Source: a virus. Taken from it: 35,235 nucleotides of DNA. Shown here piece by piece: positions 1,759 through 10,066 of the stretch. The position numbers and the translations under genes are program-made. The notes beneath the pieces were generated by a model. That model ran no database searches and was not told the DNA's origin. It saw nothing but the letters and a program-made list of their open reading frames with translations. Each line of letters opens with the position of its first letter. Within the stretch, counting starts at the first letter, position 1. Location of the stretch: the IMG/VR virus record IMGVR_UViG_3300034682_000397, positions 1 to 35,235 of that record. One strand, written 5' to 3'.

Positions 1759-2267
1759 GCAGACACTCCTTGTTTTTGTTGTTGGGCTGTTGTGCTGAGT
1801 AGTTCCGGTGCCACATGCACCACTTGTCCGCCGGCCGACTGCGCGCGGGCAATCATGCGTTGGCTGGCTCGGTGGATCTCGCCGGCACTGAGCTGCTGCA
1901 GCTGGAATTCGTGCAGGTCCACGAAGGTGGCCAACGCATCCTGCTCGGCAAATTCCAGGGCTGCAGGCAGCCAGGTGCCGCTGGCCATGGCGCGCAGCTC
2001 CCAGCTTTCCAGTGCTGCCTGGGCCTGGGCGATGTGCCCTGCCAGGCCGCGCACGATGCGGGTGCGCTCAATCTCCATGGCCAAGATGGTTTGCGTGTTC
2101 AGCACCAGGTGCTGCAGCTCGGTGGCTACCCCAGCTGCGGCCGCAGCCAGGCAGGTGCGGACAGGGGCCACGATGTCGGCCAGCTCTGCAGTCGTCAGTC
2201 GGGTGCTGTACTTCCAGGCGGTGCTGATTGGGTCTTTGACGGTGCGGCGGCGGGTCTTGGCGGTCAT
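1755..2267 (-). CDS. Hypothetical early phage protein, 170 aa
   Basis: No family recognised. The sequence is mostly helical in character, Ala- and Gln-rich, with a basic N-terminus (MTAKTRRRTVKDP) and no membrane segment or Cys motif. The start ATG at 2267 overlaps the TAA stop of the ParB-like gene by one base (TAATG) and has GGAGG 7 bases upstream. Its own stop overlaps the AlpA-like start by four bases. It is therefore translationally coupled on both sides. A DNA-binding or ParB-partner role is possible, but nothing in the sequence proves it. Confidence 0.8.
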   Translation of the reverse strand: MTAKTRRRTVKDPISTAWKYSTRLTTAELADIVAPVRTCLAAAAAGVATELQHLVLNTQTILAMEIERTRIVRGLAGHIAQAQAALESWELRAMASGTWLPAALEFAEQDALATFVDLHEFQLQQLSAGEIHRASQRMIARAQSAGGQVVHVAPELLSTTAQQQKQGVSA

Positions 2268-4576
2268 TACACAGCCTCCAGGTTCTGCACAAGTTCCAGT
2301 TCGCTGGCATCAAAGGACTTGGTCAGCGGCTTGCAGCGCGGGGCTGCGGGGAATTCCACAAACACGGCTCGATCACCCATCAGGGAGACCGCCTTGCCCT
2401 CTTCGCCGATCCAGGTGCGCAGGCTCTTGCTGACAGTGGGCAGCACGCGAACACCCTTGCCAATCGCCTCGGCACGGGTCTCCGGCGTCAGCGGCTTTGC
2501 TACTGCTGCCCCAGTCTTCTCGTCTGCACCGTCCTGACCATCGTCCGCTGATTCGCCTGTGCCACCGGCAGCAGGCGTGTCTGCGGCGGGCTTGGCCGGC
2601 TTGGATCGCTTGAGCGTCACCAGGGGGCCCGGGGCCTGCGCGGCAGCGGCCGCGACTGGCCCCGCATCGTTGCCTTGCGCGGCCACGGCCGCGCCTGGTT
2701 CTGGTTCCCCAGCAGCAGCCTGCAGCGCGGCAGCGATGCCGGCGGCGGCCGCCTCGGCGCTCAGCTTCTTCCCACCTCCGCCAGCCAGCGCAGCGGGGTC
2801 TCGCTGGGTTTTGCCTTTGGCCTTGCCCTGACCGCCATCCTTGGTAGTACGCGCAGCGGGGTTAAGGGGTAGATCGCTCTTCGGGGCATCAGTGTTATCA
2901 GGCGCGGGCTTGGGCAGATGCAGCACCGCTGCGGCGTGCTTTTCCTCTTTGATGACGGTCTGCAGCTGGGGGCCAAACACGGCGCGTGCCACCAGCATCA
3001 GGCCTTCGTTCTTCTCGCGGCCGTACCCGTAGTAATTGGCGCTGACGTCGCGCTGCATCACGCACAGCAGGTGCAGTAGGTGCGGGGCTGGCGTGTCTTT
3101 GGCGAACTGGTGCAGTGCAGAGACGCCGCCTACCTTGCCCAGGCCCAGGATGGCTGCCACGGCCTCAGCATCGGCCGTGCTGAGGCTGCTGACTGCGCCG
3201 CGCACCAGATAGCGGTGCACGTCCAGGTTGAATGCGTCTGCAGGGTTGTCCTCGATGATGACTTCCCAGGTGCGGTCGCGCAGCTGGTTGCGCCACGCCT
3301 GTTCATACTTGCCTTCGGCTTTGGCAGCGGCCTTGGCCTTCTTGTCCTCGGCGAACGCGATGACTTCCTTAGATACCTTGGCGGATGCATCGGCTTGGCC
3401 CTCTACGGCCTTGAGTAGACGCAGCACCACATCGTTGGGCAGTGCGTCCAGCAGCTCGCCCTTGTTGCGGCGGCTTTCGATCTTCACGGGCAGGATGCCT
3501 TCGGCCTCCATCTGCTTGCCGATGATCTTGCGCAGTGGCTGGTCAGTCGGGCTGTCTTCCGCCGTGTCCAGACGGCGGTAACCCACCATCTTGTCGTTGT
3601 AGCCGTGCTGGCCGGCCAGCTCCTGGGCCTCTTCGCCCACGATGACGGTTTGGCCCTTTTCCTTCGCGGCCGCCACCTGCTGGGCGATGTGCGCCTGTGT
3701 TTTGTTCTCAAAGCAGGTGCGGTCTGTGCACACGTCTGCACTGTCGATGTCGTCGTACAGGTCGGGGTTGGCCCCGGTGCGCTTGCTGCACTGCATACAG
3801 CTGCCGGCCTTGGCCACCAGGCTGGCATCGGTGATATTGAAGCGTGCCTTGTCCAGGTCCAGCATGAACTCCTGCTGAACATGCTTGGCGCAGTCGCGGT
3901 AGGAGGGCAGCTTGTCGTTCCAGTCCGGCTTGGTCATGTACGCAATCGCCTTCAGCTGCAGCTGCTTGCTGGGAATGCGGGCAATCAGCAGGGCCTTGCT
4001 GAAATCGATGCTGCCAGCGCGCAGGGCTTCCTTGCCTTCTGCGCACATGTCCAGAATCTTCAAGCGGGCGTACACATAGGCTCGGCTCTTGCCGATCTTG
4101 AGCTTCAGCTGGTCGGCGTTGATGCCCTGGTGCTGCATCAGCGTCTGATAGCCTTCGGCCTCTTCCAGTTCGGTGATGTCCTCGCGCTGCAGGTTTTCGA
4201 TCACCTGGGCTTCCAGTGCCTCGTCGTCCGTCATGTCGCGGATCATGGCGGGCACCTGTACCGCATTCGCCAGGCCGCAAGCCCGCCAGCGGCGTTCGCC
4301 GGCCACGATCTCGTAGGCAGCCCGTTCGCGCTTCTCGGCCTTGGCCTTGGCCTGCTCAGCGGCCACGCGGTGGGCGGGCAGGGGGCGCACCAGGATGGGC
4401 TGGTGCACGCCCGTGGCTGCAATGCTGTCTGCCAGATCCTGCAGCGCCGCCTGGTCAAAGTGCTTGCGCGGGTTGGTCAGGCTGGGGGTGATGCTGTGCC
4501 AGGCCAGGTGGTCGAAGGCCGCGCCGGCGCCTGGTGTGGGCAGGGCCTGGGTTAGGGTGTCTTTGGAGTCGGTCAT
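2267..4576 (-). CDS. parB: ParB/Spo0J-like protein with Cys cluster, 769 aa
   Basis: ParB-superfamily nucleic-acid-binding protein. The N-terminal ParB/Srx-like domain (residues about 30-135) contains the hallmark boxes GERRWRA (93-99) and ENLQRED (127-133), which in the family form the CTP-binding pocket and clamp. An HTH region follows at about 150-180. Residues 260-288 carry two CxxC/CxxxxC-like pairs (C260, C263, C283, C288) suggesting a small metal-binding insert. Residues about 590-690 are an Ala/Pro/Gly-rich disordered linker, followed by a conserved-looking C-terminal segment. It is far longer than chromosomal ParB (about 300 aa), and no ParA gene lies nearby. The ATG has AGGAG 8 bases upstream and overlaps the upstream gene by ATGA. 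Partition is possible for a plasmid-like phase, but regulation or DNA clamping may be the actual role. Confidence 0.88.
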   Translation of the reverse strand: MTDSKDTLTQALPTPGAGAAFDHLAWHSITPSLTNPRKHFDQAALQDLADSIAATGVHQPILVRPLPAHRVAAEQAKAKAEKRERAAYEIVAGERRWRACGLANAVQVPAMIRDMTDDEALEAQVIENLQREDITELEEAEGYQTLMQHQGINADQLKLKIGKSRAYVYARLKILDMCAEGKEALRAGSIDFSKALLIARIPSKQLQLKAIAYMTKPDWNDKLPSYRDCAKHVQQEFMLDLDKARFNITDASLVAKAGSCMQCSKRTGANPDLYDDIDSADVCTDRTCFENKTQAHIAQQVAAAKEKGQTVIVGEEAQELAGQHGYNDKMVGYRRLDTAEDSPTDQPLRKIIGKQMEAEGILPVKIESRRNKGELLDALPNDVVLRLLKAVEGQADASAKVSKEVIAFAEDKKAKAAAKAEGKYEQAWRNQLRDRTWEVIIEDNPADAFNLDVHRYLVRGAVSSLSTADAEAVAAILGLGKVGGVSALHQFAKDTPAPHLLHLLCVMQRDVSANYYGYGREKNEGLMLVARAVFGPQLQTVIKEEKHAAAVLHLPKPAPDNTDAPKSDLPLNPAARTTKDGGQGKAKGKTQRDPAALAGGGGKKLSAEAAAAGIAAALQAAAGEPEPGAAVAAQGNDAGPVAAAAAQAPGPLVTLKRSKPAKPAADTPAAGGTGESADDGQDGADEKTGAAVAKPLTPETRAEAIGKGVRVLPTVSKSLRTWIGEEGKAVSLMGDRAVFVEFPAAPRCKPLTKSFDASELELVQNLEAV

Positions 4577-6321: not shown

Positions 6322-6461
6322 GCCGCACCTGCCTTGCGGGCGCTGATGCCGCCAAGGTCGTGCTGCAGGAAGCCCATGGCGCGGCAGATGGCATCGCACA
6401 CGCTGGAGGCCAGCACGGGGATGGAGGTCTTGCCCTGCGTGACGATGTAGGGGGTCAGCAT
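6318..6461 (-). CDS. Hypothetical small early protein, 47 aa
   Basis: The ATG at 6461 was chosen over a longer upstream frame because GGAGGTG sits eight bases before it. The gene overlaps the end of the 113-residue gene by seven bases and the next gene by four. The sequence (starting MLTPYIVTQGKTSIPVLASS) looks like a small soluble alpha/beta protein with two Cys residues. No family recognised. Confidence 0.65.
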   Translation of the reverse strand: MLTPYIVTQGKTSIPVLASSVCDAICRAMGFLQHDLGGISARKAGAA

Positions 6462-6796
6462 GTGGGCACCTCCGCTTCCAGGCGCAGTCGTTGCGTGCGC
6501 AATTTGCGGGCTGCTTTTGCTACTGCGAGGGCGCGTGGGCAGCCGTAATGAAGCAAAGCGCCGCGGCTGATGACGTGCTGCAGACGTTCGGCGGCATCTT
6601 CTGCCAGTGCGTAGTAGCCAGCCCACAGGGCTTCACGGTATGTGCCTGCTTTCAGCACTAGGTACTTGGCCTTCAGCACCTCGGCCTTGGCGTGCTTCTC
6701 AGGTGCGGTTTCTAAGAAGATGTCTGCGCGATCTATTGCAGGCGCATCTGCGGTTGTGCATACGTGTGCACTGAGGGGAATTCTCCAAGCGTGCAT
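6455..6796 (-). CDS. Hypothetical early phage protein, 113 aa, first gene of the main left operon
   Basis: No family recognised. Helical, Lys/Arg/Ala-rich, with no membrane segment or cofactor motif. ATG at 6796 follows AGGAG with nine bases between. It is the first gene downstream of the strong leftward terminator at 6864-6893, and no convincing promoter is visible in the 70 bases between them. This implies that transcription reaches it by readthrough or antitermination from further right. Confidence 0.75.
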   Translation of the reverse strand: MHAWRIPLSAHVCTTADAPAIDRADIFLETAPEKHAKAEVLKAKYLVLKAGTYREALWAGYYALAEDAAERLQHVISRGALLHYGCPRALAVAKAARKLRTQRLRLEAEVPTC

Positions 6797-6863
6797 GCCT
6801 CACTACTCCTAAAGCTAGAGCTGTTAGCGCCCGTTCTGCTTGCGATTGCAGGCAATTTGGGCA

Positions 6864-6893
6864 ACAAAAAACCCGCCGGGTTAGGGGCGGGTT
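6864..6893 (-). terminator. Intrinsic terminator, leftward
   Basis: Stem AACCCGCC/GGCGGGTT (6870-6877 with 6886-6893) with an eight-base loop. On the minus strand it is followed by six Ts. It lies between the P-loop gene and the main left operon and would stop leftward transcripts unless they are antiterminated. Confidence 0.85.
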
Positions 6894-6955
6894 GTTGGCC
6901 TGTTGAGTACATACAGCACATTTGGTGCTTCGGCACTTGCCAGTCACTGTGGCGG

Positions 6956-7213
6956 TCAGCTGACTAGCTCCAGCGTAACGACAACATCACCAGGCACCAC
7001 TTCAGGTGGAGGCCCCTGCAGGTACTCCACAAAGATCACATCCGCATCGGGCCAGCGATTGATGGCTTGCGTGCGGGTGTTGATGAACTCGCTTTCCGGG
7101 TCGTTCATGCCTGCGCATTTCAGTCCTTGCGCTTCAAACTGTTTGCCAAGCGCCACGGCGTGGGCTGATTTGCCACTACCCTGAATGCCGACGATGTGAA
7201 AGACTCTTGCCAT
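6956..7213 (-). CDS. Miniature P-loop NTPase-like protein, 85 aa
   Basis: Residues 9-16 read GIQGSGKS, a perfect Walker A motif after a beta strand (RVFHIV), followed by a helix. Residues 58-63 (DVIFVE) are a candidate Walker B. At 85 residues it is about half the size of ordinary nucleotide kinases or AAA domains, so it may be a degenerate nucleotide kinase, a small signalling NTPase, or part of a complex. The ATG at 7213 is preferred over the one at 7219, because AAAGGAG directly abuts the latter but is six bases from the former. The start codon overlaps that of the divergent gene on the other strand within CATG. Confidence 0.8.
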   Translation of the reverse strand: MARVFHIVGIQGSGKSAHAVALGKQFEAQGLKCAGMNDPESEFINTRTQAINRWPDADVIFVEYLQGPPPEVVPGDVVVTLELVS

Positions 7214-7529
7214 GACCATCTCCTTTACTGAGAAATCAAAACTGCCTTACTCGCTGTTGCTTGATCCATGGACCATGCGTGCGGCGGCGTACACGAACAC
7301 TCACCAACTCGTTGCTGAGCTGGCGTCTGAGAAGCTGGTGCAGTTCGCGCTTGCAAACACATCCCGTGAAGTTGCGTTTGAGCGGAAGTTGCACCAGCCA
7401 GATTCGGGGTGGCGTCAGTTGCCTGCGTGGGCAACAGAAGACGTGCTGGATCGCATGAAGATCGTGTGGATCAAGCGACCTGATGGTGAAGCGCCAGATG
7501 CTGAGTGGCTGGCGATACCTAAACGCTGA
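7212..7529 (+). CDS. Hypothetical protein, 105 aa, moron-like
   Basis: No family recognised. Soluble, with a Trp-rich C-terminal half (GWRQLPAWATEDVLDRMKIVW). It is transcribed against the left early operon and immediately followed by a strong rightward terminator, the usual layout of a prophage moron that is expressed independently. No good ribosome-binding site or promoter precedes ATG 7212, and the second ATG at 7275 is no better. The start is therefore uncertain, and translation may be leaderless. Confidence 0.65.
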   Translation: MTISFTEKSKLPYSLLLDPWTMRAAAYTNTHQLVAELASEKLVQFALANTSREVAFERKLHQPDSGWRQLPAWATEDVLDRMKIVWIKRPDGEAPDAEWLAIPKR

Positions 7530-7536
7530 GAATAAG

Positions 7537-7558
7537 AACCCGCTGAGGCGGGTTTTTT
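7537..7558 (+). terminator. Intrinsic terminator after the 105-aa gene
   Basis: Seven-base-pair stem AACCCGC/GCGGGTT with TGAG loop followed by Ts. On the minus strand the hairpin is followed by TTCTTATT, so it may also partly stop leftward transcripts coming from PL. Confidence 0.9.
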
Positions 7559-7635
7559 CTTGCCCTCAATAAAGAAAGCCGCATGGCCTGTGGCAACAAG
7601 AGAGGGAGGGCAGAGGAACACCACAGGCGCGGCAC

Positions 7636-7782
7636 AAACCTAAGCGTACTGGGGCAATGCGCTTAGGTTTGCCCTGCACGGGGCAGGGCAAGGCACTCAA
7701 GGGGTGCCGTATGTACTCAACAAGCTGTTAACGATCCGGGCTGGCCCGGGTCGATGCCGTGGTGCCCATCGCATTGCTGCGA
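7636..7782 (-). ncRNA. Chain of stem-loops in the PL leader (put-like candidate)
   Basis: Between PL and the 7537-7558 terminator there is no convincing gene, but the strand transcribed from PL can form five hairpins. They are UCGCA with GCAA tetraloop (7769-7782), a CCGGG/CCCGG stem (7736-7749), GGCAC/GTGCC (7692-7708), a nine-pair stem (7669-7677 with 7683-7691), and an eleven-pair stem (7636-7646 with 7660-7670). The last three abut each other with no unpaired bases between them. None is followed by a U-run, so they are not terminators. The layout recalls the adjacent hairpins of HK022 put RNA, which modify RNA polymerase. Sequence similarity to put was not tested; function is inferred from position and structure. 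Confidence 0.5.
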
Positions 7783-7783
7783 C

Positions 7784-7819
7784 GGGTGTGATTACACCAA
7801 AGGGTGTATTCAAAGTCAA
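7784..7819 (-). promoter_or_regulatory. Leftward early promoter PL
   Basis: Minus-strand TTGACT (7814-7819), 17-base spacer, TGTAAT (7791-7796); predicted start near 7784. Near-consensus sigma-70 promoter. A perfect operator palindrome lies across the -10/spacer and a second one covers the -35, exactly where CI binding would block it. Confidence 0.85.
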
Positions 7820-7833
7820 CACTGTTTGGTGTA
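7785..7833. promoter_or_regulatory. Left operators (OL) for CI/Cro
   Basis: OL1: TACACC-AAAG-GGTGTA (7793-7808), perfect six-base arms with a four-base spacer. OL2: AACACT-GTTT-GGTGTA (7818-7833), imperfect. A further GGTGT half-site lies at 7785-7789. The same palindrome is found at PR, and no other gene-proximal copy was noticed elsewhere, so these are very likely the repressor sites. Confidence 0.85.
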
Positions 7834-7835
7834 TT

Positions 7836-8546
7836 TCAGAAATCTTCGCCCTTCCATACCTTCACCACTCGTGCGAAGACTTCAAAGTCCATGCCTTGCA
7901 CTATGTCGAAAGGGTCGTACAGGGGGTTGTAACTTTTGGCTCGAATCACAAGACCGTTCACCGTAGGAATGCGTTGGAGTGCTTTGACAAATCCCTCGTC
8001 GCCCACGCGGAAGAAGTAGATGCCATCCACGTCAACTACGTTGATTCCTCTATCTACCAGCAGTGGATCGCCAGAGTTGTAAAGGGGCTGCATAGATGGG
8101 CCAAAGCCTGTAACGATGGCTAAATTGCGCGGGCTGGTGATCCGGTGTACGTTCATTTGCAGCCAGCGATCCGAGACACGCCATTCCTTGATAACGCCGG
8201 GCTGATCTGCTAGCACCAAGCCCCTCCCCATACTGCCGCCTGTGTCGTATTGAGGGATGGTGACGTCTGTTTTCTCCCAGTGGGCCCTTGGTGCAGCTGC
8301 AATTACTTCCCCTGATTTGCCATCTTGAGCATCTTTTTCTTCTGAACGATCCAGCCACCCGGGTGCAAGGCTGGGATCGAAGCTTTGCTCCATCCTGCGC
8401 GCAACCTTTTCACCAAACGACTTCCGACCAGCAAGCATGTCTGCCAACTGCCGAGGGGGAAGTCCAAAGCGATTTGCAGCGGTAGTGAGCGTCAGCTCAT
8501 CCACGATGCGTTGCGCGACATGGCGACGAATTTCTGCGATTTCCAT
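7836..8546 (-). CDS. cI: CI-like prophage repressor with S24 peptidase fold
   Basis: Maintains lysogeny by binding the operators at PL and PR. The N-terminal 60 residues contain an HTH (NRFGLPPRQLADMLAGRKSF). The C-terminal half is a LexA/CI S24 domain with the nucleophile Ser in GFGPSMQPLYNSGD (about residue 151) and the general-base Lys in EGFVKAL (about residue 188). A GTG directly precedes the ATG at 8546, and neither has a strong ribosome site. No Ala-Gly or Cys-Gly dipeptide occurs 30-60 residues before the Ser, so classical RecA-stimulated self-cleavage is uncertain. The gene ends three bases from OL2, as compact as in lambda without rex. Confidence 0.92.
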   Translation of the reverse strand: MEIAEIRRHVAQRIVDELTLTTAANRFGLPPRQLADMLAGRKSFGEKVARRMEQSFDPSLAPGWLDRSEEKDAQDGKSGEVIAAAPRAHWEKTDVTIPQYDTGGSMGRGLVLADQPGVIKEWRVSDRWLQMNVHRITSPRNLAIVTGFGPSMQPLYNSGDPLLVDRGINVVDVDGIYFFRVGDEGFVKALQRIPTVNGLVIRAKSYNPLYDPFDIVQGMDFEVFARVVKVWKGEDF

Positions 8547-8565
8547 CACGTCATTGGACCAGTTA

Positions 8566-8633: not shown

Positions 8634-8942
8634 ATGTTGACCCTTAAAGACTTTCTGAAAGGTCTGTGCGTCGAGGAGCGGGAGGCATTCGCCAAGCGCT
8701 GTGAGACCACTTACGGCCATTTACGCAACGTCGCGTATGGGCAAAAGCCTGCGGGAGAAAAGCTTTGCATCTTGATTGAGCGTGAGAGCGCCAGAAAGGT
8801 GCTTTGTGAATCGCTCCGTTCGGATGTGCCTTGGAATGTGCTCCGCCAGTCACCCGCATCCAGCACTTCAGCGGGGGCGGGCTGTGGTCAGTCGATCTAT
8901 TTCCCCCATCACCACCCCTCGCAGGAGAGCGCAAATGGTTGA
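8634..8942 (+). CDS. cro: Cro-like / YdaS-type HTH regulator
   Basis: First gene of the rightward early operon, divergent from cI. Residues 1-70 (LKDFLKGLCVEEREAFAKRC and the segment around HLRNVAYGQKPAGEKLCILIE) have the YdaS/Cro helix-turn-helix pattern. The C-terminal 30 residues are low-complexity and may be dispensable. No Shine-Dalgarno sequence precedes the ATG, which lies about two bases from the predicted PR start point, implying leaderless translation as known for lambda cI from PRM. It should bind the same TACACC-N4-GGTGTA operators. Confidence 0.85.
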   Translation: MLTLKDFLKGLCVEEREAFAKRCETTYGHLRNVAYGQKPAGEKLCILIERESARKVLCESLRSDVPWNVLRQSPASSTSAGAGCGQSIYFPHHHPSQESANG

Positions 8943-9580: not shown

Positions 9581-10066
9581 ATGGAACTGAACGACGCAGT
9601 GCGCCGCATGGTGCGCAATTACCCGGGTGGCATGAATGCGCTGTGCGCCCGCATGGGCAAGAGCCCGAGCACCCTGGACAAGGAAATCCGCGGTGCCCAG
9701 GGCTTCAAGCTCGGTCTGGCCGATGCGCAGGAGATTGCGGTTTTGTGCCACGACGCCAAGGTTCCTGGCGCGCTGGAGCTGCTGAGCCTGATGGCCCACG
9801 CCGTGGATCAGACCTTGCTGCCGCTGCCCTCTGACGATGCGCCGCCGATGACGCTGGAGCGCCTGGGCAAGCTGATGCACGAATGTGGCGATCTGGTGGC
9901 TGTAGTGACCAAGGCCAAGGCGGACGGCAATGTCTGCGACAACGAACTCAAGCAGTGCATGGCGCAGTGGGCGCAGTTGGTGTCTGCGGGCCATGCCTTG
10001 ATGCAGGGCTTGCAGGCCAAGAACCGCGAAACCATGGCCCGCTGGGTGGAAGGCGGGGGTGTGTGA
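9581..10066 (+). CDS. Phage regulatory CII-family protein (CP76 type)
   Basis: 161 residues. The N-terminal segment (DAVRRMVRNYPGGMNALCAR, then KSPSTLDKEIRG and KLGLADAQEIA) matches the layout of the phage CII (CP76) family, an HTH protein that helps establish lysogeny. The C-terminal half is helical and probably mediates oligomerisation. AGGTGG lies upstream of the ATG. It sits downstream of cro and upstream of the replication gene, as lambda cII does, although the family is different. The next gene starts within its stop codon (TGATG). Confidence 0.8.
   Translation: MELNDAVRRMVRNYPGGMNALCARMGKSPSTLDKEIRGAQGFKLGLADAQEIAVLCHDAKVPGALELLSLMAHAVDQTLLPLPSDDAPPMTLERLGKLMHECGDLVAVVTKAKADGNVCDNELKQCMAQWAQLVSAGHALMQGLQAKNRETMARWVEGGGV

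Follow-up and report, generated by a model that had tools for sequence, protein, structure and literature searches.

What does the long, strongly folded leader of the PL transcript do in a phage whose early left operon lies behind an intrinsic terminator, and for which no N protein is evident? The locus lies in IMGVR_UViG_3300034682_000397, a viral DNA of 35,235 nt (hereafter the window, meaning this whole stretch), and its leader is read on the minus strand. An initial annotation described a series of hairpins there, three of them abutting, and proposed an antiterminator resembling HK022 put acting ahead of a terminator before the left operon. Those hairpins are recovered on the minus strand: the stems of H3, H4 and H5 have 5, 9 and about 11 pairs, as described, and minus-strand RNA from 7620 to 7800 folds at -85.2 kcal/mol, whereas shuffled sequences average -64.1 (sd 4.5), which gives z = -4.7; 0 of 200 shuffles fold as well. 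The terminator before the operon (T1) is also real. Two features go beyond that description, namely a terminator-like hairpin (T0) directly 3' of the hairpin region and a pair of complementary segments, R and R' (Table 1).

Table 1. Features of the PL leader and the early left region, in window coordinates.
Feature	Position	Strand	Description
CI-like repressor (S24 peptidase)	7836-8549	-	
PL promoter	7791-7819	-	-35 TTGACT (7814-7819), 17 nt, -10 TGTAAT (7791-7796); CI operator-like GGTGTATT/AATACACC repeats on flanks
H1, 5'-terminal hairpin, 9 bp, GCAA loop	7765-7786	-	CCCGUCGCA-GCAA-UGCGAUGGG; begins at about +1
Linker, invariant	7753-7764	-	CACCACGGCAUC; also given as CCACGGCAUCG
H2 hairpin	7733-7752	-	GACCCGGGCCAGCCCGGAUC; boxB-like position, 5' of boxA
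boxA	7726-7736	-	GAUCGUUAACA; 10/11 vs host rrn boxA GAUCCUUAACA
R, complementary to R'	7704-7725	-	Adjoins boxA; boxC/leader-strand-like
H3 hairpin, 5 bp	7692-7708	-	GGCACCCCUUGAGUGCC; overlaps R
H4 hairpin, 9 bp	7669-7691	-	UUGCCCUGCCCCGUGCAGGGCAA
H5 hairpin	7638-7668	-	ACCUAAGCG...CGCUUAGGU; one both-sides change (L021)
T0, terminator-like hairpin	7568-7633	-	GCCGCGCCUGUGG / CCACAGGCCAUGCGGC, pyrimidine-rich loop, then UUUCUUUAUU
Terminator of the convergent gene	7537-7554	.	Terminator-like also when read from PL
Convergent 105-aa gene	7212-7529	+	Antisense to PL transcript; kept in L014/L015; no family match
85-aa P-loop-like protein	6956-7213	-	First PL-sense gene; not N-like
R', complementary to R	6898-6919	-	Target GUGCUGUAUGUACUCAACAGGC
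T1, intrinsic terminator	6866-6893	-	Ahead of early left operon
113-aa gene	6455-6796	-	First after T1

Because the PL motifs TTGACT and TGTAAT, 17 nt apart, sit at 7819-7791, the transcript should start at about 7784-7786, which places the foot of H1 at approximately +1. At the other end of the leader, the T0 hairpin itself spans 7633-7578 and is followed by UUUCUUU, closing a structured RNA of ~215 nt, and its stem differs between relatives and the window by a compensatory C-G to U-A change. The T0 loop (7594-7621, minus strand) is a conserved stretch of ~27 nt consisting almost wholly of pyrimidines; its sequence in relatives is UUCUUCUCCUCCCUCCCUCUCUUACUUG, and it is reminiscent of an anti-Shine-Dalgarno sequence or of a loading site for Rho. 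A mutually exclusive fold is also available to the R-type leader, in which CCACGGC of the linker (7753-7764) pairs with the 5' arm of T0, GCCUGUGG (7621-7633). No Rfam family matched the leader at its gathering score, and searches up to E = 10 returned only chance matches to terminator stems, none of them on the hairpins.

Leaders of this family were found at about 30 Burkholderiaceae prophage or genome loci, where they begin at +1 of PL promoters with unrelated operators; in nearly all of them the -10 element of a sigma70-like promoter ends ~7 nt before H1, while the operator sequences differ completely (promoter positions were computed for most loci and the last loci were read by eye). Relatives of the CI repressor found elsewhere are without the leader, and repressor and leader have therefore been exchanged separately. 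Relatives of the 85-aa gene do carry the leader, joined to different repressors and promoters. A DNA pattern drawn from H4/H5 recovered the full form, which we call R-type, in 8 viral contigs, and one drawn from the 5' part of the leader recovered 15; in genome searches the leader was present in 10 of the 53 genomes of one genus, with 0 matches for a reversed control pattern, and divergent leaders came from the genus of an Acidovorax genome. Across 401 Burkholderiaceae genomes a covariance model of the full leader (R1) matched a single genome, weakly, so that the short pattern was the more productive of the two. Phage and plasmid collections contained no blastn match to the leader. A further covariance model (R2) found exactly one strong copy per phage, at PL, in 15 of 15 phage records, and no second copy at PR.

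Many of these relatives keep only H1, the linker, H2 and the immediate 3' sequence, ~60 nt in all, and lack the three abutting hairpins. The minimal element is therefore the first ~60 nt, with H3-H5 an add-on, and the abutting hairpins lose the central place that they had been given. The order of the conserved core is H1, linker, H2 and boxA. Across 27 loci the linker is near-invariant, and CCA(C/A)GG(C)AUCGA is kept in the divergent loci L102-L104. H1 varies widely in sequence with its hairpin kept: counting from the base of the hairpin, 138 of 147 cells are paired (94%), changes on both sides occur in 5 of the 10 pairs, and shuffled arms do as well in 1 of 5000 trials, although the alignment fitted by the model, in which the helices are not in a common register, gave pair counts that say nothing either way. 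Close relatives hardly vary in their H2 stem, and in L102 and L105 H2 is still a hairpin, of other sequence. In simple-type leaders without R (L044, L045, L051 and L058) a sequence shortly 3' of boxA, CGAUGUUG or one very similar, is complementary to the linker CGGCAUCG, suggesting a different closing helix.

The last element of the core resembles a host signal. Directly after H2, boxA is present in 32 loci in the form UC(U/C/G)UUNANAA. It lies ~50-60 nt after PL +1, upstream of terminators (T0/T1 in the window). In the window, its match at 10 of 11 positions is to the rrn boxA of a leader-carrying genome, and no other site on that strand of the 35 kb matches as well. The rrn leaders of genomes carrying this leader family have the boxA sequences GAUCCUUAACA, GCUCCUUAAAA, GUUCCUUAAAA and GUUCAUUAAAA, and their 16S-23S spacers have GUUCUUUAAAA. 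Among the divergent loci, L102 and L103 match a host rrn boxA at 11 of 11 positions, and for L104 and L105 the agreement is equally complete (11/11) with GYTCTTTAANA, the published consensus (PMC5725501); selection of these four loci was not wholly independent of boxA, because model R2, which found them, included boxA columns. Searching host genomes for the exact E. coli boxA GCTCTTTAACAA gave matches in coding DNA only, the host rrn boxA being different from this sequence. It is worth noting that 2 of the 11 positions of the window boxA disagree with the E. coli-type consensus. The U-to-G change at boxA position 5 in R-type leaders could weaken it; one boxA substitution, U-141G, reportedly abolishes complex formation in E. 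coli, and recruitment of the Nus complex reportedly needs no more than boxA (PMC10250234).

With moderate confidence, we read the leader as a boxA/Nus-type antitermination leader of the rRNA-operon kind, apparently independent of N. The antiterminator reading is supported because the leader is kept at +1 of PL while operators, promoters, repressors and downstream genes change, and because terminators and an untranslated antisense gene follow it. An antiterminator in the PL leader with no N in evidence, as the initial annotation had it, is accordingly still the best reading of the locus, shorn of its likeness to put.

The obstacles that such a device would have to overcome recur among the relatives. 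The PL transcript reads the convergent gene antisense and untranslated in the window (7212-7529) and also in L014 and L046, and in many loci it is an antisense gene, not a PL-sense gene, that stands behind the leader. Terminators in the PL direction were found in all R-type loci checked and in the simple types L046 and L052, and in L019, L022 and L023 T1 comes within ~240 nt of the leader. A strict consensus scan of 6400-7900 detected no promoter-like site, which is weak evidence because the same scan misses PL itself. A search with the 113-aa gene found no relatives.

Several further observations concern the early region. Directly behind the leader, the window (7212-7529), L046, L049, L052, L055 and L065 have a variable gene that points to PL with its stop facing the leader, HNH-like in L046; the position has the look of a slot for cargo, perhaps genes of exclusion or defence. 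At 8634-8942 and 9581-10066 of the window, the gene in the Cro position resembles YdaS-type regulators, below the Pfam cut-off, and CII is of the CP76 family and is the one non-repressor gene common to almost all leader phages. Large ParB-like proteins were seen by inspection in the early left operon of the window (2267-4576, minus strand, 769 aa) and of L046 (5569-6432, minus strand), in the latter as the first gene after the terminator.

We propose that H1, linker, H2 and boxA, the ~60 nt with which the PL transcript begins, would serve as a host-factor antitermination site. NusB-S10, joined by NusA, NusG and probably SuhB, would bind boxA as it leaves RNA polymerase, and the folded RNA upstream of boxA would stand in for a phage N protein. 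The polymerase so modified could then pass the untranslated antisense gene, a Rho target, as well as T0 and T1, allowing expression of the early left operon. What complexes of the rrn boxA type are known to confer is resistance to Rho; read-through of intrinsic terminators, of which T1 is one, is not among their known effects.

At T1 the window and its R-type relatives have an additional feature. R is complementary to R', which ends 4 nt before T1, and at up to 3 mismatches these are the sole two such sites in the window, where 0 are expected. The longest run of R:R' pairing in the window is 22 contiguous bp, compared with a null maximum of 15 bp across 77 other windows. Duplex searches place R' 3-7 nt before T1 in R-type loci; by free energy another site is favoured in L018 and L020, and sequence matching puts R' at T1 there too. 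Two positions that have changed in the window show compensating changes in its R', and the window R pairs best with the window R'. Several other R-type loci reach just 14 bp of unbroken pairing, which does not exceed the null maximum, and the case for pairing in these loci therefore rests on the constant position at T1; R:R' is absent from simple-type relatives. Integron attC sites and mobile-element terminal repeats were set aside as explanations because R is part of a folded leader and R' is next to T1 in every case, and the constant inverted orientation of the two segments favours RNA pairing over a pair of inverted DNA-binding sites.

The model for rRNA operons has boxA anchoring boxC at the RNA exit, where boxC can meet the trailer as this emerges (PMC10250234). 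By analogy R, beside boxA, would be placed like rRNA boxC, with the difference that rrn boxC lies 18-19 nt after boxA whereas R starts 0-2 nt after it, the 3' half of R falling ~10-20 nt after boxA. In the window's subfamily, R might thus be held near the RNA exit channel and pair with R' as it emerges just before T1, as boxC does with the trailer, and we infer that R:R' would help to override or regulate T1, or mark the RNA for RNase III. R' lies outside the T1 stem, and no simple exclusion between terminator and antiterminator is therefore visible.

The main rival explanation of R and R' is an antisense regulatory RNA of the P4 CI or C4 type, in which transcription ending at T0 would leave the leader as a small, stable RNA. 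Its R would then pair with the R' of transcripts made later and favour their termination at T1, serving immunity or feedback. R:R' in R-type loci, with R' 3-7 nt ahead of T1, and the closure of a ~215-nt structured RNA by the terminator-like T0 are what such an RNA would present, and P4 offers a precedent in which a leader RNA pairs with flanking sites to cause termination (PMC4825925). We nevertheless consider this unlikely: it leaves unexplained the simple-type leaders, which have no R, R' or T0; the phages already possess a CI repressor; the separation of R' from the T1 stem shows no direct switch; and no Rfam C4 or P4 match was obtained up to E = 10.

That the leader is a put-like element after all, a folded RNA binding the beta' zinc-binding domain of RNA polymerase free of Nus factors and with an incidental boxA-like sequence, we judge quite unlikely. 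HK022 put is the phage antiterminator known to work as an RNA that needs no phage protein, is blocked by mutations in the beta' zinc-binding domain, and has copies after both PL and PR. The location of the leader at +1 of PL, its two 5' hairpins within ~60 nt, the lack of an evident N protein and the conservation of H2 and linker beyond the needs of boxA all suit this explanation. Against it, neither covariance model recognises the other's RNAs. A model built from seven put RNAs (R3; two stem-loops, ~70 nt) recovers HK022 putL at 95 bits and putR at 46 bits, together with the phiEt88 put RNAs, and scores the sense strand of the window leader at -1.7 bits at most, with a 10-bit unfiltered match on the opposite strand; conversely, put RNAs were not found by leader model R2. 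As the put model finds putL and putR but not the leader, by this measure the leader is not put. The single copy at PL and an rRNA-type boxA whose variants resemble those of the host rrn operons also speak against the put-like identity originally assigned.

We regard as improbable a nut-like site whose phage N analogue went undetected, with H2 as the boxB of a basic protein that evolves fast. N protein families are highly diverse and diverge fast, and an analogue could have been missed for that reason, or be encoded elsewhere, with the invariant H2 as its possible target. Hairpin plus boxA is also the composition of nut (PMC10250234). However, BLAST clustering of nine phages revealed no shared small N-like protein, only CII and repressor being common to 8 of the 9, and the interval from PL to T1 contains nothing gene-like in L022 and L023, for which open reading frames were listed, as reported also for L019; together these make an N protein in the usual place unlikely. 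The order of H2 and boxA is moreover the reverse of that in lambda nut, and the H2 stem stays nearly invariant across phages with otherwise unrelated genes. Finally, a 5' hairpin that simply stabilises the early mRNA or regulates translation would fit H1, at the extreme 5' end and variable in sequence like a protective hairpin, but has almost nothing to recommend it given the invariant linker, H2 and boxA and the antisense gene, not PL-sense gene, behind the leader in many loci.

Returning to the boxA/Nus-type leader, it is possible, if short of probable, that a family of temperate phages of Comamonadaceae-type hosts carries a protein-free copy of the rRNA antitermination device, made of a boxB-like hairpin, boxA and a boxC-like R with R' at the terminator, which drives the early left operon through the host complex and not through N. 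Our literature search, covering open-licence literature, found no earlier description of such a leader. If true, a second protein-free kind of phage antiterminator, unrelated to put and using the host rRNA machinery, would show how early genes are switched on in phages outside the lambda group. It would also offer a small system for questions about rRNA antitermination, such as the role of boxB without N and the joining of distant RNA segments by the complex, with the R/R' pair at a terminator as a direct test of the looping model.

The leader has points in common with four known systems. With P4 CI and P1 C4 RNA it shares a stretch of leader RNA that can pair with a terminator-proximal site of its own operon, and differs in the presence of a protein repressor, in a target beside an intrinsic terminator and in the lack of an Rfam match. 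HK022 putL/putR likewise begin at +1 of PL with two 5' hairpins and are apparently protein-free, but have no sequence or covariance-model similarity to the leader and no boxA, and the leader has no putR counterpart. Lambda nutL/nutR combine boxA and a hairpin in the early left leader with a terminator downstream; here the hairpin is 5' of boxA (in nut, boxA is 5' of boxB), no N gene was found and nutR has no counterpart. Unlike the rRNA leader (boxB-boxA-boxC; NusA, NusB, S10, NusG, SuhB and S4; leader-trailer helix), the phage leader follows PL, has a distinct H1-linker-H2 arrangement and places the complement before an intrinsic terminator, not after rRNA; the two share the order of hairpin then boxA, a near-identical boxA, a boxA-adjacent segment pairing far downstream, and no evident phage protein.
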